Under the pieces are notes generated by a model that had not been told where the DNA came from, ran no database searches, and saw nothing but the letters and a program-made list of their open reading frames with translations. A stretch of 33,363 nt of DNA, from the NCBI GenBank assembly GCA_023954745.1, contig JAGSHC010000045.1:1-33363 (forward strand), read 5' to 3'. The position numbers and the translations under genes were made by a program. Positions 3,000 through 22,434 of the stretch are shown piece after piece (position 1 is the first letter of the stretch; each line of letters opens with the position of its first letter). The stretch comes from Deltaproteobacteria bacterium (GTDB taxonomy: Bacteria > Myxococcota_A > UBA796 > UBA9615).

Positions 3000-4298
3000 A
3001 TGCCCGAGGAAGACCCCAGCCAGCCGCTGCTCCTCGCTGAAGAGCGGGAGCGTCGCCAGCGCGCCGAAGCCCGGCTCGCCAGCGCGGAGCGCCTCGCCAC
3101 CGTGGGCACTCTCGCCGCGGGCGTCGCCCACGAGATCAACAATCCGTTGACCTGGGTCATGAGCAACCTCGAGGAGATCGCCCTCGGACTCGAGGACCGC
3201 TCCGTGCCCCGTGCGCATCTGGTGGCGTACGTACGCGAGGCCAACGATGGCGTGGAGCGGATTCGTTCGATCGTCGAGGGCCTGCGGACCTTCATCCACG
3301 GGGACGATGACCGGCGCTCGCCGGTGCGGGTCGAAGACGCTCTCGAGCTTGCTCTGAAGGTGGCCACCGGTGAACTTCGCGGGCGGGCGACCGTCGAGCG
3401 ACGCTTCGGAGACACGCCCGAGGTGCTCGCCAACGAAGGGCGGCTCTCCCAGCTCTTCCTCAACCTCATCATCAATGCAGTGCAGGCCTTCGGTGACGAA
3501 CGAAGCAACACCCTGGTCCTGGTGACCGATGTGGAGCGGGACGACGTCGTGATCGAGGTGCGAGACAACGGTCCCGGGATTCCTCGGGAGTATGTCTCCC
3601 GCCTCTTCGACCCGTTCTTCACGACGAAGCCCGTGGGCGTCGGCTCGGGGTTGGGGCTGTCCATCTGCCTCAACATCGTCCGGACCCTGGACGGATCGAT
3701 CGACATCGAGACGGAGGTCGGGGAAGGCACCACCTTCCGGATTCGGCTGCCTCAGGCCCCAGCAACGCGCTTCAGCGACGTCGACCTGACTCCCCTCGGC
3801 GACACGCCGGTCCCGGATCGTCGCATGCCGACGCTCCCTCTCCGCAGCTCTGGCGACTCCGCCCTCCCTCCTCGTTCTGGCGACTACTCCCTTCCCGCCG
3901 CGACCCCGCTGGAGACGCCCGTCCAGAAGTGGCGGATTCTTCTGGTGGATGACGAGCCGAGTGTGCTCCAGGCGCTGACTCGGGTCCTGCGTCGCACGTT
4001 CGACGTGGTCCCAGCCCGCTCGGGCCGTGAGGCGATGGAGCTGGTGCGCGTGGGCATGAAGATCGACGCGGTGGTGACGGACCTGCGCATGCCCGATGGC
4101 TCCGGGATGGAGCTGCACACGCTCCTCGAAGACGAGGCGCCCCTGCTCGCCGAACGTCTCCTGTTTCTCACAGGCGGAGGGCTCGCGCGCGAGGAGTTCA
4201 TGTTCCTGGACAAGCCTGGACGGCGTTGGGTCTCCAAACCGGTCAAAGCGGCCAACTTGGTGGCGCTTGTGCAGGAACTGATGACCATCGAGCCCTAG
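3000..4298 (+). CDS. Soluble hybrid histidine kinase with C-terminal receiver
   Basis: This 432-residue protein has no membrane segment or recognisable sensor domain. After a short helical lead rich in Glu, Arg and Ala it goes straight into a HisKA domain with H-box GVAHEINNPL, phosphoacceptor His44. The HATPase domain follows: N-box NLIINAVQAF (Asn159), G1 box DNGPGIP (189-195), F box FDPFFTTK and G2 box GSGLGLS (216-221). A Ser/Pro-rich linker (about 258-308) with two similar SGDSALPP/SGDYSLP stretches leads to a receiver domain. The receiver has acidic residues in LLVDDEP, phosphoacceptor Asp361 in VVTDLRMP, and Lys413 in SKP. Autophosphorylation at His44 and transfer to Asp361 or to a separate regulator is expected from family knowledge. 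The nearest candidate partner is the HTH-receiver gene 126 nt downstream. The kinase is divergent from the TonB-receptor gene, with a very short shared upstream region. Confidence 0.93.
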   Translation: MPEEDPSQPLLLAEERERRQRAEARLASAERLATVGTLAAGVAHEINNPLTWVMSNLEEIALGLEDRSVPRAHLVAYVREANDGVERIRSIVEGLRTFIHGDDDRRSPVRVEDALELALKVATGELRGRATVERRFGDTPEVLANEGRLSQLFLNLIINAVQAFGDERSNTLVLVTDVERDDVVIEVRDNGPGIPREYVSRLFDPFFTTKPVGVGSGLGLSICLNIVRTLDGSIDIETEVGEGTTFRIRLPQAPATRFSDVDLTPLGDTPVPDRRMPTLPLRSSGDSALPPRSGDYSLPAATPLETPVQKWRILLVDDEPSVLQALTRVLRRTFDVVPARSGREAMELVRVGMKIDAVVTDLRMPDGSGMELHTLLEDEAPLLAERLLFLTGGGLAREEFMFLDKPGRRWVSKPVKAANLVALVQELMTIEP

Positions 4299-4424: not shown

Positions 4425-5021
4425 GTGACGGAACGCAAAGCGTTCTCGACCCAGCAGGCTGCTGCCCTCTGCGGGGTTGACCGGCGTTCGATGCTCCGTT
4501 GGGTCAAGGCAGGCGTCCTGCCGAGCTACCAGACCGGTGGCGGTCGATGGCGCATTCAGCCTGACGACCTGGTCGCATTCATGCGCGACCGGGGGATGGC
4601 GGTTCCAGCAGAGCTGGCTCCTTCGTGGCCCACGGTGGTGATCGTCGACGACGACGAGGGCTTCGTGAACGCCTTGCGGCGGGTCGTCTCTGCGCGTCGT
4701 CCCGATGCCCGCGTGCTGACTGCCATGGATGGCTTCACCGGAGGCATGCTCGTCGCAGCTGAGCGGCCGGACCTGCTCCTTCTCGATGTCCAGATGGAAG
4801 GACTCGACGGAGTGGAAGTCTGTCGGCGGATCCGCGCTGACGCGTCGCTGGGCTCGATCAGCATCGTGATCCTCTCGGGTCACCTGAACGAGGAGCTCGA
4901 AGCAGAGCTGCGGGGCCTCGGGGTCCTCCATTGCTTACGAAAGCCCGTCCCTCCGGCCCAGATCCACGGCCTGCTCGATAAGCATCTGCAGGTCGCCCGG
5001 CCGGCAGCCAATGGGGCCTGA
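4425..5021 (+). CDS. Excisionase/MerR-type HTH fused to a receiver domain
   Basis: A 198-residue response regulator in the unusual order DNA-binding domain first, receiver second. Residues 6-56 (FSTQQAAALCGVDRRSMLRW ... GGGRWRI) match the short winged HTH seen in excisionase/MerR-type 'helix_turn_helix_17' proteins. Residues 68-190 are a CheY-like receiver: acidic patch Asp75-Asp77, phosphoacceptor Asp121 in LLLLDVQMEG, Ser151 in the ILSG strand and Lys173 in RKP. The GTG start at 4425 is preceded by AGGA at 4417-4420, and a GTG-to-ACG codon series follows in the expected codon use. The 3' end overlaps the next gene by 11 nt. Phosphorylation would be expected to change DNA binding or dimerisation; the target sites are unknown. 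The kinase encoded just upstream is the natural partner, by position only. Confidence 0.9.
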   Translation: MTERKAFSTQQAAALCGVDRRSMLRWVKAGVLPSYQTGGGRWRIQPDDLVAFMRDRGMAVPAELAPSWPTVVIVDDDEGFVNALRRVVSARRPDARVLTAMDGFTGGMLVAAERPDLLLLDVQMEGLDGVEVCRRIRADASLGSISIVILSGHLNEELEAELRGLGVLHCLRKPVPPAQIHGLLDKHLQVARPAANGA

Positions 5022-5322
5022 CGCTCTCCGAGCCCAGCTCGACGACACATTCGCCTCGTTTCGAGATGCTCCCGGGGCCGAGGAACTCGCAAAGCTCCTG
5101 CGCACCGTCTGCCACGACGTGAACAACGCGCTGGGAACCCTCGCCCTCGAGCACTACTCCGTGGGCGCGATCCTCGACGATGTGTCCGCCTGCGTGCCGA
5201 CCGGCGAGCTGGCGGAGCTCCGAGCGGCCCTGGCGAACGCCGAGGCAGCGAGAGACGCAGGGGAGGCTATCGTCGCCATCCTTCACGGCACCGCGCGCTC
5301 CCTCGACTCCGAGCCAGGGTAG
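5011..5322 (+). CDS. Small protein with a kinase-like H-box but no ATPase domain
   Basis: The protein is 103 residues long and overlaps the end of the HTH-receiver gene by 11 nt, so the two are probably co-translated. Residues 28-50 read KLLRTVCHDVNNALGTLALE, which resembles the first DHp helix of HisKA kinases (compare H-D-x-N-N-x-L). The candidate phosphoacceptor is His35. The remainder is a second long Ala/Glu/Leu-rich helix (GELAELRAALANAEAARDAG). No ATP-binding domain follows: there are no N, G1 or G2 boxes and the frame ends. It could be a dimeric phosphotransfer protein, a decoy, or a phosphatase of the neighbouring receivers, as DHp domains with the HDxNN sequence often have phosphatase activity. 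Function is inferred from the motif and the neighbours only. Confidence 0.75.
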   Translation: MGPDALRAQLDDTFASFRDAPGAEELAKLLRTVCHDVNNALGTLALEHYSVGAILDDVSACVPTGELAELRAALANAEAARDAGEAIVAILHGTARSLDSEPG

Positions 5323-5364: not shown

Positions 5365-7128
5365 ATGCTCGTCCTCGTCATCAACTGCGGAAGCAGTTCT
5401 CTCAAGCTTGCCCTGGTCTCCTCGGCTGACGGCCGGTCCCATGCTCAACGCACAGTGCAGAGGGTCCCGCGAGGGGGGCACGCCGCAGCCCTGGCGGACG
5501 CCTTGCCGGACCTCCTCGGAGACCACACCCCGGACGTCGTCGGGCATCGGGTGGTGCACGGTGGAGACCGCTTCTCCGCTCCGGTGCGGATCGATCCGAC
5601 GGTGGAGGCGGCGATTGCGGATCTGAGTGCCCTCGCTCCGCTGCACAACCCCGCCAACCTCGCGGGGATTCGCGCGGCCCGCGAACTCTTGCCCGACCTG
5701 CTGCACGTGGCGGTGTTCGACACGGCCTTCCACTCGACGTTGCCGCACCGCGCCCAGCGGTACGCCCTGCCCCTGGAGATGGCCGAGAAGCACGGCGTCC
5801 GTCGGTATGGCTTCCATGGGCCCTCCCATCAGTACGTCTCGGCCGCCGCCGCCCAGCATCTGGGCACTCCCATCGACCGCCTCCGGCTCATCACCTGCCA
5901 CCTCGGCAGCGGGGCCAGCGTGTCTGCGGTGGAGTACGGCCGCTCCGTCGAGACCTCGATGGGGATGACTCCCTTGGAGGGGTTGGTGATGGGGACCCGC
6001 TCGGGCGACGTGGATCCAGGCGCGCTCCTTCACCTCGCTCGGGTGGAAGGGCTGGATATCGACGGATTGGACACGCTCCTGAACCGCGAATCGGGACTGC
6101 TGGGACTCGCCGGCGTGAACGACATGCGGGACATCGAGGAGCGCGCGGCGGATGGGGACGAGCGTGCCCGCGCGGCGCTGCACGCCTTCTGCCACCGTCT
6201 CCGCAAGTACATCGGGGCTTACGCGGCGGTGATGGGCGGGGTCGACGCCATCGTCTTCACGGCGGGGATCGGCGAGAACAGCGCGCTGGTGCGGCACCGT
6301 GCGGCGCAGCGCCTCGAGTTCCTGGGGGCCGTCCTCGATGAGGATCGCAACCGAGACGCCCGCGTGGGACCGGACACTCCGGTGGCCGAGATCGGGGCGT
6401 CGCACGGTCGCTGTCGGCTGCTGGTCGTGGCGACCAACGAGGCTCACGCCATCGCCAAGGCGGCGAGCCGGATCGCTCAGGAGCTGGATCGGGTGCCGAT
6501 CGAGGCGCCTCCCATCCCGGTCGCGATCTCGGCGCGCCACGTGCACCTCACCGCGGACGCCGTGCGCGCGCTCTTTGGGGAGGGCCACAAGCTGACGCCG
6601 CGTACCTGGTTGTCCCAGCCCGGCCAGTTCTCCTGCGAGGAGCGGGTCACCCTCATCGGGCCCAAGCGCACCATCGAGCGGGTGGGGATCATCGGGCCCG
6701 TGCGTCGGGCGTGTCAGATCGAGATCTCCCGGACCGACGAATTCCACCTCGGGATCGACGCGCCCATCCGCCGCTCGGGCGACGTCGAGAACACCCCAGG
6801 GATCACTCTGCAGGGTCCCGCCGGCCGCCTCACCCTGGAGGATGGAGTGGTCCAGGCCTGGCGGCACATCCACATGCAGCCTGCGGACGCCGCCATCTAT
6901 GGCGTAGAGGACGGGGACGTGGTCTCGGTGGCCGTCGACAGCAACGGACGGGACCTCGTCTACGGCGACGTGCTGGTGCGGGTGAAGGGCAGCTATCGCC
7001 TCGAGATGCACATCGACACGGACGAGGCCAACGCGGCGAACCTCTCACGAGGGGACGTGGGCATGTTGGCCGCGACCTCGGGGACCGTACGCGTCGTGAG
7101 GAAGAACGTGCGGTGGAAGCCCGCCTGA
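5365..7128 (+). CDS. ackA-pduL: Acetate kinase fused to PduL-type phosphate acyltransferase
   Basis: Residues 1-375 are a full acetate kinase. Visible motifs are the N-terminal ASKHA phosphate loop NCGSSSLK (7-14), HRVVHGG (61-67, with the substrate Arg62), FDTAFH (Asp119), the RYGFHG stretch (147-152), CHLGSG with His179, GIGENS (301-306) and ATNEAHAIA near the end. After a short linker, residues 384-580 are a PduL-type phosphotransacylase. Its metal-binding set is present: His392/His394 in ARHVHL, Glu425 or Glu426 in CEERV, His501/His503 in RHIHM, and His549 in EMHIDTDEANAA. Together the two halves would convert acetyl-CoA (or propionyl-CoA) and phosphate to the acyl phosphate and then to acetate plus ATP, or run in reverse. 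They are normally separate proteins of about 400 and 200 residues. The ATG at 5365 has GGAG just upstream. The gene follows the small H-box gene by 42 nt, so it is probably in the same operon. No microcompartment genes are nearby. Confidence 0.95.
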   Translation: MLVLVINCGSSSLKLALVSSADGRSHAQRTVQRVPRGGHAAALADALPDLLGDHTPDVVGHRVVHGGDRFSAPVRIDPTVEAAIADLSALAPLHNPANLAGIRAARELLPDLLHVAVFDTAFHSTLPHRAQRYALPLEMAEKHGVRRYGFHGPSHQYVSAAAAQHLGTPIDRLRLITCHLGSGASVSAVEYGRSVETSMGMTPLEGLVMGTRSGDVDPGALLHLARVEGLDIDGLDTLLNRESGLLGLAGVNDMRDIEERAADGDERARAALHAFCHRLRKYIGAYAAVMGGVDAIVFTAGIGENSALVRHRAAQRLEFLGAVLDEDRNRDARVGPDTPVAEIGASHGRCRLLVVATNEAHAIAKAASRIAQELDRVPIEAPPIPVAISARHVHLTADAVRALFGEGHKLTPRTWLSQPGQFSCEERVTLIGPKRTIERVGIIGPVRRACQIEISRTDEFHLGIDAPIRRSGDVENTPGITLQGPAGRLTLEDGVVQAWRHIHMQPADAAIYGVEDGDVVSVAVDSNGRDLVYGDVLVRVKGSYRLEMHIDTDEANAANLSRGDVGMLAATSGTVRVVRKNVRWKPA

Positions 7129-16687: not shown

Positions 16688-17695
16688 TCAGACCGCGCGG
16701 CGGTCCTCACCGTCCAGCGCGCGTCGCGCCAGCATCACGGCTTCGGTGAGCGTGTCGAGGGGCTCCCGCGGCGCGAACTCCAGCTCCTTGCGGGCGCGGG
16801 TGCTGTCGGCCCACCAGAAGTGCGACGCCATCTCCAGCTCCACGGGGCTTGCGGGCAGTCGGTCTTGCGCGATCTTCGGCAAGAACGAGAGCAGCCGTGC
16901 ACCGAACCGGGGGGCCTTGAGCCCGGGGCCCCGGACCCCTGCGGCCCGTCCGGCGCGGGCGTAGAAGTCGGCGAAGGTCCAGTTCGCACCGACGAGCAGA
17001 TAGCGCCGGTTGGGGTGTCCGTGGCCGAGGGCACGCACCACGGTGCGCGCGACGTCCCGCACATCCACGAAGGAGATGCCTCCGCCGGGCGCCACGGGCA
17101 GCTGACCGCGCAGGAGCGGCAGGAGGACGTCGTCCCCAGCCGATGGGCTGGAGCCAACGTCGAAGGGTGCTGGAGCCGTGGGCCCGAGGAGCAGGGAGGG
17201 GTTGAGCACCACGACGTCGAGCGTGTCGCTGCTCGCGGCCAGGGCAGACTGCTCGGCGAAGAGCTTCGCCCGGTAGTACGGCCAGCCCTTTGTGAAGGAC
17301 AGAGGCGAGGGCGCGGTCTCGTCGAGGGTCTCGTCGCGGTCGCTCACCGCGATGGTGCCGGAGCTGGAGAGCACGAGGAGGCGACGGACGCCCGCCTCCT
17401 GGGCGGCGGCGACAGTGTGTTCGGTGGCGCGCACATGTGCGTCGTACATGGCACCTGCATCGCGAGCCTCGTGACTTACGCTCCCTGCGGCGTGGACCAC
17501 AGCATCGAAGCCGGCGAAGTGCTCGGCGAGTCCGTCGGGCGCGAGCAGGTCGCTGCGCAGCACGGACACCGGCACGTCGCCGAGCCTCTCCGGCCGGCGG
17601 CACAGTCCCACGACCTCGTGGGCAGGGCTCTCGTGCAGTGCCGCGAGGAGGTGTCGCCCGAGAAAGCCCGAGGCTCCAGTGACGAGGACCTTCAT
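16688..17695 (-). CDS. NAD(P)-dependent epimerase/dehydratase-type reductase (last gene of elb-like operon)
   Basis: An extended short-chain dehydrogenase of 335 residues. The Rossmann motif is TGASGFLG (6-13), the acidic DLL strand is at 49-51, and the catalytic set is Ser110-Ser112 with Tyr140-x3-Lys144 in WPYYRAK. It resembles the dihydroflavonol reductase/3-beta-hydroxysteroid dehydrogenase branch. The start codon overlaps the stop of the megasynthase gene as TGATG (1 nt), so it is translationally coupled to it. In Myxococcus xanthus, as I recall, a dehydrogenase (ElbE) sits at the same place after ElbD, and a role in reducing or oxidising an ether-lipid intermediate is a reasonable inference. 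Substrate unknown. Confidence 0.9.
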   Translation of the reverse strand: MKVLVTGASGFLGRHLLAALHESPAHEVVGLCRRPERLGDVPVSVLRSDLLAPDGLAEHFAGFDAVVHAAGSVSHEARDAGAMYDAHVRATEHTVAAAQEAGVRRLLVLSSSGTIAVSDRDETLDETAPSPLSFTKGWPYYRAKLFAEQSALAASSDTLDVVVLNPSLLLGPTAPAPFDVGSSPSAGDDVLLPLLRGQLPVAPGGGISFVDVRDVARTVVRALGHGHPNRRYLLVGANWTFADFYARAGRAAGVRGPGLKAPRFGARLLSFLPKIAQDRLPASPVELEMASHFWWADSTRARKELEFAPREPLDTLTEAVMLARRALDGEDRRAV

Positions 17696-20600
17696 CAGGA
17701 GCCCTTCGCCCGGGCGTCGGTGTCGCCTTCGTCGGGGCCGAGCCGGAAGCAGCGCGCGAAGCTCATGAGGAGGTCGAGGTCGGACGTCTTGATGTTCCCG
17801 CCCATGAAGTCGGAGACGTCGGGCGCCCAGGCTTCACGGACCATACGGGTCCAGATCGTGGGGGACGTCTTCACGACGCAGTCGGCGGTCCCCTCCGGGC
17901 GGCCCTCACGCACCACGCACTCGGCGGCTCCGGGACTCACGCTCACTGTCCAGCGCCCGCGGTCTCCTCCCAGGGAGAAGTACCAGGTGGTCGCGTCCTC
18001 GACGCCATCGGGGGTGTAGCGAGTCGGGAGCTCGGCGAACAAAGAGACCAGAGGGTCCTCGAGCACTTCGCCCGGGAGCTCCCAGCTGGTCACCCGGTCG
18101 AGCATGAGCACGTCGCCCTTCGACAGGGCCTTCACGGCGGCGTGGAGGACCGAGGACACCACGCGGGACTCCTGCCCTCGGGTGCGCCCCTCGCCGGCCG
18201 CCAGGGCGCGGAGGCGGGCGTTGGAGAGGGGGGGCCCAATGCGGACGTGGATGGGGCGTCGTGGACGCGGGAGGAAGCCTCCCTTCGGCAGAACCCCGTG
18301 GGAGCCATCGATGTGCAGGGGCAGCACGTCGACCTCCGTCTCCAGGACGAGCTTGCCCACCAGCGGCTTGAAGTCCTTGAGCACGCCGTCCACCTGGCGG
18401 CCGCCCTCGGGGAACAGCGCCACGACGTGGCCTCCACGAATGGTGCCCACAGCCTCGCGTAGGCTCTGCCGGAAGCTGGTGCCCCGGTCGAACGGCTGGA
18501 GGTTCGTGAGCTGCTCGAAGTAGGCAACCCACAAGGAATTGCCTTCGAAGAAGTAGTCCTTGGCGGCGAGCCCGACCATGCCCTCGCCGTAGCTGCCCAG
18601 CGCGGTCTTCACCAGACCGAAGTCCAGGTGGGAGCAGTGGTTGCTCACCACAATGACGTTGCGGTTCTGCGGGATCAGCGCCTGCCCGCTCACGCTCACG
18701 TCCAGCGCCTGCTCGTAGATGGCTCGTTGGCCCCGGCGGAGCGCGACCTTGAGCGGGTTCACCAGCGGAGCCGGAATCGAGATGGGCACGCTCGTGTCGG
18801 CGTCCTCCTCGCGTCGTACAGGGACGAGGTCGGTGCGGTCGGCAGCCACGAGCACCTCGAGCTCCGCGACGGTGCCGCACCCAGCGAGGGCGTCGGACGC
18901 AGGCCGCCCGCCCGGGAGCTGGTCCAAGGCGGCCGCGAGCTCGACCCACATGAGGGAGTCGAAGCGCAGGTCCTCCACGAGGCGCGTCGAGCCGCTGACC
19001 TTGCTGATGGCCACCCCGGCGACTTGCGACACGGCGTGCCGCACGGCAGGGACCGCTTCACCGTCCTCGCCCCTCGGCACTGTGGCCGCGGACTCGATGA
19101 GGGCAAGGACCTCCCGCACCTCGCCCCGCTTCACCTTGCGGGTGGCCGTGCGAGGGAGCGGAGCGTCGACGAGGTGCACCACCGACGGGCGGGACCAGGC
19201 GGGGAGGCGTGCGGCGGCGTCCCGTAGAGCCTTCCGGGCGCGGGTGTGAGCGGCCTGGCGAGCCAGCTCGCTGTCGCTGTCCTCCGGCACGGCGAGGAGT
19301 CCGAGACGCTCACCCCCGGCGGGGTCCGGCAGTCCGACGAGCGAGAGCTCCGCCACGCCGGCGATGACCCCGAGGCGGCTCTCGACATCGTCGAGATGCA
19401 CGTTCTCGCCGGCTGAGGTCACGACGACGTCCTTCGCCCGGCCCACGAGGTTCAGACGACCGCGTCCGTCCAGGCGACCGAGGTCGCCCGTCCGCAGCCA
19501 GCCGTCCTCCGTCATCACGGCATCGGTGGCCTCCCGGTCGCGGAAGTAGCCCGCCATGATGTTGGGGCCCCGGGCCACCACCTCGCCCACCCCATCCCCA
19601 TCCGGGGCTTCGATGCGGAGCTCGACACCTGGGAGCGCCTGCCCCACGGATCCGGGCTTCGCGCCAGGACGCGCGGGGTCCACGGTGAGGACCGGCGCCG
19701 CTTCGGTGAGCCCGTACCCCTCGGCGAGGGGGAGGCCAAGCCCCGCGAAGAAGCGGTGCGTCGACTCGGGCAACGCTGCCCCGCCACTCACGAGCAGCCT
19801 CACGTTGCCACCCAGCTGCGCGTGCACGACGCCGAACAGCAAGCGACCCAGGTCGAGGCCTGTGGTGCGCCCGAGCATGCGGTTGAGCTCGAGACCCGCG
19901 TCGAACACCGTGGTGAACATCGCACCGCGCGCCTGAACCTGAGCCTGAATGCGGCGCTCCAGCAGCTGCCAAAGCGCCGGAACGCCGACCATCGCAGTGA
20001 TGCGGTCGTCGGCCAGGGAGCTCGACAGGGCGTCGGCCGTGAGCTCGTCGAGATAGGTCACCCGAGCCCCGCGAGAGAGCGGAAGGAGTAGCCCGCAGGT
20101 GAACTCGAAGGTGTGGTGCAGCGGCAGCACCGACAGCACTCGGTCCTCCTCCGTCAGCTTGAAGACGCGGGAGATGGAGGCGAGCATCGAGCAGAAGTTG
20201 GCGTGCGTGAGCATCACCCCCTTCGGTGTGCCCGTGGTGCCCGAGGTGAAGAGCACCGAGGCCACAGCAGAGCCATCGGGGCGCTGCCCCAGACGACCCT
20301 GCTCCACATGCCCGAGCCAGTCATCCCCGCGACTCACGCTCACGTGGTCGAGGGAGAGGATGGTCAGTGAACCGTTCGCAAAGGCCTTCTCGAGGGTCTC
20401 CACGGAGTCGTCATCCACGAGGGCAGCCGTGGGCTCCGCCGCCAGCGCGATGTTGCCGACCTCGTCGGACGCGAGGCCCGGGTCCACGGGGACGACCGTG
20501 GCACCCGCCGCGAGGATGCCGAAGTAGCCCGCGACCCAGCGGGGGCTGTTCCGCCCCGTGAGGATGACTCGGTCGCCGGCGCTCACGCCGCTCTCTACGA

Positions 20601-22434
20601 GCTGCACCGCGATGCTGCGCGCATGTTCCTGGAGGTCGAGGTAGCTGATCTGGGCGAAGCCATCGACGTGGCGAAGCTGGAGCGCGGGGGCGTGCCCGTG
20701 GCGCTCGGCGACTCCGTCGAGGAAGTCCACGAGGTTCTCGTAGGCGGCCAGCGGCGCCTTGGGCCGCGCCAGTCGGGCCTCGATGCGGGGCCAGACGAGC
20801 TTCTCCACGCCGGGCAGGTGCACCTCCATGAGGTAGTGCCGCCAGTCGATGGAGGTGGGGGTCCAGTCGAAGAGGGCCTGCTGCTCATCGGGCAGTCGCG
20901 CGTGGGCGTCACGCACGTTGCGACACACGAAGGTGTAGCTGTTGAGGGCCGTGAATGGCACGTACTGGTCGATGACCCGGAAGGTGCCAGCGGACGCCTT
21001 CGCCACCTCCTCGATGCCCTTGGCGGCGGGCTCGGCGAGCGCCGCGAGGGGGCCCAGCTTCGTCGACGCCTTGCGCAGCATCCCCGCGATACCGCGCAGG
21101 CGGTCGCGCGCTTGCGCCGGGCCCTTGTTGGCCCAGGTGTCCGCGCTCACGGGCACCGTCTCGTAGCGGGACTGGAGCCAACTCCAGAGCGGATTCTTGC
21201 CCGCCTTGCTCGAGTAGTGACGACGCTTGTAGAGCCCTGTGAGCTCGATGAGCCGCTCCATGGGCAGCGGGTTCACGTCCGAGCTACCCAGGTGATAGAC
21301 GGCGCGGTGGGTGCCCTCGATGAGCTCCCCGAGGGTGAGGACCATCCCGGCGGCGACCATGTCGACGGGGATGACGTCGAGCACAGAGTCCGGCGAGCTC
21401 GGCATGCCGGTCATGCCCTGCATGGACAGGTACATGATGGGCGCCGACGTGGTGATGCCTTCGTTCCATCCGGGGATCGGGAAGGACACCGAGGACTCGA
21501 TGACGGCGGGGCGAGCGATGCACCAGGTGAGGCCCGAGTTGGCGAGGATCTGCTCGCCGATGGACTTCGTGTAGGTGTAGGTGTTGGGCCAGCCCCAATG
21601 GTTCGCTCGCTCAGTACCGGCCCGGGCGAGCTCCTTCTCTTCGTACTTGCGACGCACCTTGGCGAGCTCACGGTCCAGGGGACCTCCGAGCTCCGGCTCG
21701 CCGCGCTCGCGCAGGGACTGCTTCGCCGAGTCGAGGAACGCCGACTGGCGGAAGGCATCGCTGGCGCGGTGACGCACGTGCTCCACCAGGTCCACGCACT
21801 CCCGGATCTCCTGCTCGGGGGACCAGTGGGATCCTTCGAGGTGCCCCGCCCGAGGGAAGGGGTGCTCCCGCGGGTCCACCTCGCCGATCCAGCCGGTGCG
21901 GTTGCCGGCCACGTAGGCCGTCGACGTGTGCAGTACCGGCACGTCGCCGAGGTCCTGAGCGAGCGCTACGAGGCTCTGCATGCCGAAGGCGTTGACGTCC
22001 AACGCCTCGTCCAGGGGGGGATTGAAGTCCACGACGCCCGACGCGTTGAGCAGCGCCGAGAGCTTGCCGCGCAACCGATGGCGGACGTCGGCGGGCACAC
22101 CGGCGAAGGGCCGGGACACGTCGCCGGGGATGGGGCGAATCTTGTCCCGAAGGAAGGCTTCGTACTCGGTGCCGGGGTGGGCTTCCCGCAGAGGGTCGAA
22201 CACCTGCGATGTCGCGATCTCCGCCCAGAACCGTGCCTCACTGTCGAGGCCGCCCTTGGGCCGGACCACCAGGTGGATCCTCGCGATGTTTGGCGCTCGA
22301 TGGAGCAGGAGAGAGAGGAACACCTTGCCCAGGAAGCCGGTGCCTCCGAGCACCAGAATCTCGGCGTCCTGGAGCTGTCCCAGCAGGTCCAGGGGACCGC
22401 GGGCGTCGACGATGCGGCGGGGAGGGGAGGGCAC
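17695..22434 (-). CDS. elbD: ElbD-like five-domain ether-lipid megasynthase (FAR-AMP ligase-ACP-PlsC-SCP2)
   Basis: A 1579-residue fusion. Residues 25-540 are a fatty acyl-CoA/ACP reductase: NAD(P) motif GGTGFLG (30-36) and catalytic Tyr286-x3-Lys290 in NTYTYTK. Residues 565-1115 are an acyl-adenylating ligase: LFTSGTTGTPKG (728-739), YGLTE (907-911), RTGDLG, and Lys1100 near the end. Residues 1120-1200 are an acyl carrier domain with phosphopantetheine Ser1160 in RFDSLMWVEL. Residues 1225-1440 are a PlsC acyltransferase: His1266-x4-Asp1271 in SNHCSHLDF and FPEGGR (1341-1346). Residues 1465-1560 resemble an SCP2 sterol-carrier domain. The first four domains match the ElbD enzyme of M. xanthus, which activates, reduces and transfers acyl chains to make alkyl ether lipids. 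It starts at GTG 22434, overlapping the previous stop as TAGTG, and overlaps the next gene by 1 nt. All catalytic residues I looked for are present. Confidence 0.92.
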   Translation of the reverse strand: MPSPPRRIVDARGPLDLLGQLQDAEILVLGGTGFLGKVFLSLLLHRAPNIARIHLVVRPKGGLDSEARFWAEIATSQVFDPLREAHPGTEYEAFLRDKIRPIPGDVSRPFAGVPADVRHRLRGKLSALLNASGVVDFNPPLDEALDVNAFGMQSLVALAQDLGDVPVLHTSTAYVAGNRTGWIGEVDPREHPFPRAGHLEGSHWSPEQEIRECVDLVEHVRHRASDAFRQSAFLDSAKQSLRERGEPELGGPLDRELAKVRRKYEEKELARAGTERANHWGWPNTYTYTKSIGEQILANSGLTWCIARPAVIESSVSFPIPGWNEGITTSAPIMYLSMQGMTGMPSSPDSVLDVIPVDMVAAGMVLTLGELIEGTHRAVYHLGSSDVNPLPMERLIELTGLYKRRHYSSKAGKNPLWSWLQSRYETVPVSADTWANKGPAQARDRLRGIAGMLRKASTKLGPLAALAEPAAKGIEEVAKASAGTFRVIDQYVPFTALNSYTFVCRNVRDAHARLPDEQQALFDWTPTSIDWRHYLMEVHLPGVEKLVWPRIEARLARPKAPLAAYENLVDFLDGVAERHGHAPALQLRHVDGFAQISYLDLQEHARSIAVQLVESGVSAGDRVILTGRNSPRWVAGYFGILAAGATVVPVDPGLASDEVGNIALAAEPTAALVDDDSVETLEKAFANGSLTILSLDHVSVSRGDDWLGHVEQGRLGQRPDGSAVASVLFTSGTTGTPKGVMLTHANFCSMLASISRVFKLTEEDRVLSVLPLHHTFEFTCGLLLPLSRGARVTYLDELTADALSSSLADDRITAMVGVPALWQLLERRIQAQVQARGAMFTTVFDAGLELNRMLGRTTGLDLGRLLFGVVHAQLGGNVRLLVSGGAALPESTHRFFAGLGLPLAEGYGLTEAAPVLTVDPARPGAKPGSVGQALPGVELRIEAPDGDGVGEVVARGPNIMAGYFRDREATDAVMTEDGWLRTGDLGRLDGRGRLNLVGRAKDVVVTSAGENVHLDDVESRLGVIAGVAELSLVGLPDPAGGERLGLLAVPEDSDSELARQAAHTRARKALRDAAARLPAWSRPSVVHLVDAPLPRTATRKVKRGEVREVLALIESAATVPRGEDGEAVPAVRHAVSQVAGVAISKVSGSTRLVEDLRFDSLMWVELAAALDQLPGGRPASDALAGCGTVAELEVLVAADRTDLVPVRREEDADTSVPISIPAPLVNPLKVALRRGQRAIYEQALDVSVSGQALIPQNRNVIVVSNHCSHLDFGLVKTALGSYGEGMVGLAAKDYFFEGNSLWVAYFEQLTNLQPFDRGTSFRQSLREAVGTIRGGHVVALFPEGGRQVDGVLKDFKPLVGKLVLETEVDVLPLHIDGSHGVLPKGGFLPRPRRPIHVRIGPPLSNARLRALAAGEGRTRGQESRVVSSVLHAAVKALSKGDVLMLDRVTSWELPGEVLEDPLVSLFAELPTRYTPDGVEDATTWYFSLGGDRGRWTVSVSPGAAECVVREGRPEGTADCVVKTSPTIWTRMVREAWAPDVSDFMGGNIKTSDLDLLMSFARCFRLGPDEGDTDARAKGS

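Follow-up and report, generated by a model that had tools for sequence, protein, structure and literature searches.

The reading frame at positions 5365-7128 (plus strand) of the window, by which we mean the whole 33,363-nucleotide stretch of contig JAGSHC010000045.1 analysed here, joins an acetate kinase (AckA) to a PduL-type phosphotransacylase in one chain, and is a genuine, well-conserved and ordinary example of an old, widespread and already published architecture. Sequence and predicted structure together make it very probable that the protein is bifunctional, catalysing acetyl-CoA + Pi + ADP <-> acetate + CoA + ATP and standing in for ackA-pta. The PduL half, with a dizinc site, would convert acetyl-CoA + Pi to acetyl phosphate + CoA and back, the AckA half would do likewise between acetyl phosphate + ADP and acetate + ATP, and the fusion would fill the role of the classical pair ackA-pta. 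We infer both activities from sequence, and likewise that the main acyl group would be acetyl rather than propionyl and that the net direction would be either overflow of acetate, gaining ATP, or uptake of acetate alongside Acs, which the source genome encodes on contig C279. The features of the locus are collected in Table 1.

Table 1. Features of the fusion gene and of the genes upstream of it (G001 is a genome of the same genus; rPduL is the R. palustris enzyme)
Feature	Position	Strand	Basis or remark
Histidine kinase/receiver hybrid, upstream	3000..4298	+	Pfam; order common to G001 only
HTH_17 + receiver-domain regulator, upstream	4425..5021	+	Pfam; same position in G001
103-aa ORF overlapping regulator gene	5011..5322	+	no Pfam family; 41% identical counterpart likewise placed in G001
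AckA-PduL fusion gene	5365..7128	+	587 aa, ATG start, GGAG ~7 bases upstream
Acetate kinase half, residues 1-372	5365..6480	+	Pfam/NCBIfam, Foldseek; complete fold
Linker, residues 373-383	6481..6513	+	pLDDT, divergence from G001
PduL (PTAC) half, residues 384-566	6514..7062	+	PF06130, alignment to 5cuo, Foldseek
H392-V-H394, predicted Zn1 ligands (rPduL His48/His50)	6538..6546	+	alignment
R447, predicted phosphate-contacting Arg (rPduL Arg103)	6703..6705	+	alignment
E453, predicted Zn1 ligand (rPduL Glu109)	6721..6723	+	alignment
H501-I-H503, predicted Zn2 ligands (rPduL His157/His159)	6865..6873	+	alignment
H549, predicted Zn2 ligand (rPduL His204)	7009..7011	+	alignment

Two complete halves in one frame

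A preliminary description of this DNA had placed AckA and PduL in one intact 587-residue chain with both halves complete, and this is borne out by a translation with zero stops, by Pfam domains far above their cut-offs and, for each half, by profile scores, fold, retained residues and purifying selection. AckA comes first (~1-372), followed by a linker of ~11 residues and then by PduL (384-566). The copy in G001, of the same genus, is 73% identical and uninterrupted, and its start codon aligns with the one here. In comparison with that copy, dN and dS are 0.23 and 0.93 in the AckA half (dN/dS ~0.25) and 0.16 and 0.89 in the PduL half (dN/dS ~0.18), ratios which indicate that each half is under purifying selection.

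The AckA half matches PF00871 over residues 57-365 (430.6 bits against a cut-off of 22) and TIGR00016 (408.7 bits against 293.4), and its predicted model superposes on the acetate kinases 4ijn/4dq8 with a TM-score of 0.91 of the target (Foldseek). The four motifs expected of it were all found (NCGSSS 7-12, HRVVHGG 61-67, CHLGSG 178-183 and GIGEN 301-305), and the retained residues comprise N7, S10, S12, K14, R62, H94, D119, H151, R212, D253, R255 and E359. The catalytic residues of the Methanosarcina thermophila enzyme, which we take to be N7, R91, H123, D148, H180, R241 and E384, all have their counterparts here (N7, R62, H94, D119, H151, R212 and E359). Asn211 of the same enzyme is replaced by S182, at a position that is Asn in 106 of 123 fused AckA halves and in every standalone AckA examined. 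The region ahead of HRVVHGG falls short of that in most AckA by ~20-30 residues, the spacing from N7 to R62 being 55 residues here, against 52-95 across fusions and 79-85 in the majority of standalone AckA; since one group of other fusions has a spacing of 52-60, the short N-terminus is not peculiar to the window protein.

The PduL half matches PF06130 over residues 385-560 (247 bits against a cut-off of 25) and NF011652 (251.3 bits against 209), and its predicted model covers R. palustris PduL (5cuo_B) with a TM-score of 0.95 of 5cuo (Foldseek), fold and metal ligands being alike at ~42% identity by structure alignment. In the solved PduL, Zn1 is bound by His48, His50 and Glu109 and Zn2 by His157, His159 and His204 (Erbilgin, Sutter and Kerfeld, 2016, PMC4784909). 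Of the metal set first proposed for the window protein, HVH (392-394), HIH (501-503) and the later MHIDTDEAN (548-556) stand, while CEE (424-426) is present but is no metal ligand, because Glu109 of rPduL aligns with E453 instead. Across 125 fused and 12 standalone proteins the ligands of metal and phosphate vary little or not at all (both His at 392/394 in 125/125 and 12/12), and N556 is retained alongside the zinc ligands and R447.

Distribution, ancestry and exclusivity

The fusion is far from rare. A scan of representative genomes gave 80 loci, of which 77 cover nearly the whole query in an intact single frame, and together with whole-genome searches and plasmid records this amounts to 126 distinct single-frame fusions once duplicates are removed. 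They occur in at least six phyla by record title, with MAG contigs assigned as deposited (Myxococcota, Bacteroidota, Planctomycetota, Acidobacteriota, Pseudomonadota and one Actinomycetota MAG), and the gap between the AckA and PduL matches is 10-24 residues among the matches listed. Carriers include cultivated organisms such as Plesiocystis, Enhygromyxa and Neolewinella. No viral contig encoding the fusion was found in the search. Open stretches upstream of L006, L023, L048 and L055, considered as a possible third domain, look like GC-rich DNA translated into low-complexity sequence.

The phylogeny of single-chain relatives, suggested as a check in the preliminary description, places most of each half in one group without standalone proteins (115/123 AckA halves, 121/124 PduL halves), in trees of moderate support that include few standalone proteins (13 and 11, respectively). 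Outside the main group of the AckA tree lie plasmid and distant fusions (L122, L123, L124, L214, L215, L233, L236 and L238). With so few outside and support moderate, a main single origin of the fusions, plus some extra events or misplacement, is a fair statement of what the trees suggest. A standalone AckA nested among fusions (L102) was considered as a fission and is probably a cut fusion, since its contig stops 86 bases beyond the match. Some copies are interrupted or reduced: on a plasmid of Sinorhizobium meliloti RU11/001 (L124, 5530-7417) a frame break splits off the PduL end and two genes are annotated; an AckA on an Acidovorax plasmid (L248) clusters with a fusion from Polaromonas and could be a copy from which PduL was lost; and two copies in draft genomes (L087 in G005, L094 in G036) have one in-frame stop each, from sequencing error or decay.

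A profile search of the source assembly returned a single AckA and a single PduL, both of them the fusion gene, which is the assembly's only AckA and only dedicated phosphotransacylase. Two PTA_PTB matches were weighed as Pta and rejected, the strong one being the C-terminal part of a MaeB-type malic enzyme and the weak one looking like PlsX by sequence. PduL occurs in 18 of 50 genomes of the class, and in 18/18 it is fused, always in a long frame; the rarity first implied was overstated, since within this class PduL normally comes fused. From the class and phylum searches 43 PduL frames were retrieved, and every one also contains AckA. In a wider phylum sample a PduL match was found in 92 of 285 genomes, with only four standalone full-length PduLs (G288, G237, G286 and G203), whose short frames do not lie at a contig end; two of these four genomes have the fusion as well.

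Among the 50 class genomes none has the fusion together with a separate AckA (G012, where AckA is truncated at a contig end, was left unscored). A separate AckA adjoins Pta in G008, G015, G025 and G041, and this Pta is a true one by its N-terminal part. The exclusivity applies to AckA and is not strict for Pta, because two genomes with the fusion, G013 and G051, carry an additional true Pta elsewhere.

Channelling, microcompartments and alternative readings

That the two halves have an acyl-phosphate as common intermediate, as first proposed, is supported, and it raises the question of whether they are tethered for tight channelling, with acetyl phosphate passed between the sites, little accumulating free and response regulators shielded. 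Such channelling was proposed for Ack fusions by Erbilgin, Sutter and Kerfeld (2016, PMC4784909), and the long retention of the fusion across phyla is in its favour. In the predicted monomer (AlphaFold2, mean pLDDT 84), however, linker residues 374-380 fall below 50 and are probably flexible, and 18 sites around the linker are only 28% identical to G001 with a dN/dS of ~1.2, which by this simple counting method and small sample means that the linker evolves without visible constraint. A rigid tunnel is thus unsupported, although simple proximity may play a part, and co-expression with fixed stoichiometry would be enough to explain the fusion; we regard tight channelling as unlikely. More doubtful still is the further step that acetyl phosphate might be kept between the sites, which would allow AckA-Pta flux without a free acetyl-phosphate pool and spare the carriers unwanted acetyl-phosphate-driven phosphorylation or acetylation.

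The order of the three upstream genes is kept in G001 and not in the other relatives examined, so that a tie between the fusion and acetyl-phosphate signalling through these genes is only a hint. Clustering of neighbours at 95 loci revealed no conserved metabolic neighbour of the fusion common beyond close relatives, and the source genome has no match to phosphoketolase as a source of acetyl phosphate. Elsewhere in the window (17695-22434, minus strand) is a 1579-aa chain in which NAD_binding_4/Sterile (fatty acyl reductase-like), AMP-binding, PP-binding and acyltransferase domains are joined. Its neighbours include a LarA-N-like protein, a HAD hydrolase, a second acyltransferase and a radical SAM/SPASM protein.

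The preliminary description saw no microcompartment. This is true of the window, where no shell gene was found among the proteins scanned, but contig C52 of the same genome (G000) carries shell genes together with an aldehyde dehydrogenase gene. The locus there (L269, 1164-19991) encodes one BMC-H, two BMC-T and two BMC-P proteins, the aldehyde dehydrogenase and a class II aldolase, and is similar to what has been described, in Haliangium among others, as a 'metabolosome with an incomplete core' (PMC4207490). VWA and FGE-sulfatase-like proteins are also encoded at this locus. No phosphotransacylase was found at it, and the fusion is the sole PduL of the genome, which could make the fusion the enzyme that fills this gap in the genome's own microcompartment. 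Against this, the fusion is unlinked to the shell locus and has no encapsulation-type extension in the translated frame, either before AckA or ahead of PduL, where there is only the short linker. Across the 50 class genomes, moreover, shell and fusion are each often found in the absence of the other (shell genes in 10/18 genomes with the fusion and 28/32 without it), and none of the 38 genomes with shell matches has a standalone PduL. Since the presence of shell genes does not follow that of the fusion, there is no sign of the fusion serving a shell, and we consider a microcompartment role improbable.

It is similarly improbable, and slightly more so, that in this lineage catalysis by one half (PduL being the likeliest) is impaired, leaving what is in effect an acetate kinase. 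The reason for raising it lies in the CoA contacts, given for rPduL as S45, K70, R97, L99, H204 and N211 (PMC4784909): S389, H549 and N556 are retained and L99 becomes I443, while K70 and R97 are substituted by T414 and G441, respectively. Both sites vary in other PduLs too; Gly at 441 is found in G001, Gly or Ala occurs there in some other fusions, and both S182 of AckA and G441 of PduL recur among relatives. The metal and phosphate ligands are all retained, and the PduL half is more constrained than the AckA half (~0.18 against 0.25). As for an assembly join or frameshift, named at the outset as what would refute the fusion, the source genome is a draft of 481 contigs, but no support for such an artefact was found, and it is excluded in practice because the same architecture is unbroken in 126 distinct and independent proteins, including the G001 orthologue.

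Relation to known systems and significance

The predicted bifunctional enzyme has close precedents. PduL domains in multidomain proteins, mostly annotated as Acks, have been reported, with the suggestion that in Ack fusions PduL may take over from Pta and that channelling may be aided by the joining of the two (Erbilgin, Sutter and Kerfeld, 2016, PMC4784909). As the relevant passages of that paper describe them, these fusions have the same two domain families per chain, no encapsulation peptide and the same proposed Pta-replacing role, and no difference in kind from the window protein is seen. Those passages offer no survey of how the fusion is distributed, of its exclusivity with ackA-pta or of its phylogeny. 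The literature searched contained no further account of an AckA-PduL fusion. As architecture and channelling idea were both already in that paper, the gain is one of distribution and exclusivity rather than of kind: what is added here is the count of fusions, the finding that in one class they and a separate AckA exclude each other, and their separation from microcompartments.

The classical ackA-pta operon (AckA with a long Pta, PF01515) has the same net reaction and replaces the fusion in some genomes of the class, but is made of two proteins where the fusion is one chain, and Pta is unrelated to PduL and lacks a metal site (PMC4784909). Microcompartment PduL is standalone and shell-associated, whereas the window protein has AckA where the encapsulation peptide would be. 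The acetate/propionate family kinase model (TIGR00016) matches the N-terminal half of the fusion, and its name hides the C-terminal PduL domain; plasmid copies are annotated only as 'acetate/propionate family kinase'. Under such a kinase-only name, an organism that carries the fusion can appear to be without Pta.

A phosphotransacylase best known from microcompartments is thus, in this class, always found within a two-enzyme chain that replaces ackA-pta. If acetyl phosphate were indeed retained between the sites, the two-component genes directly upstream in this genus would make the link testable, and the fusion offers a natural candidate bifunctional enzyme in which acetyl-phosphate channelling may be measured.
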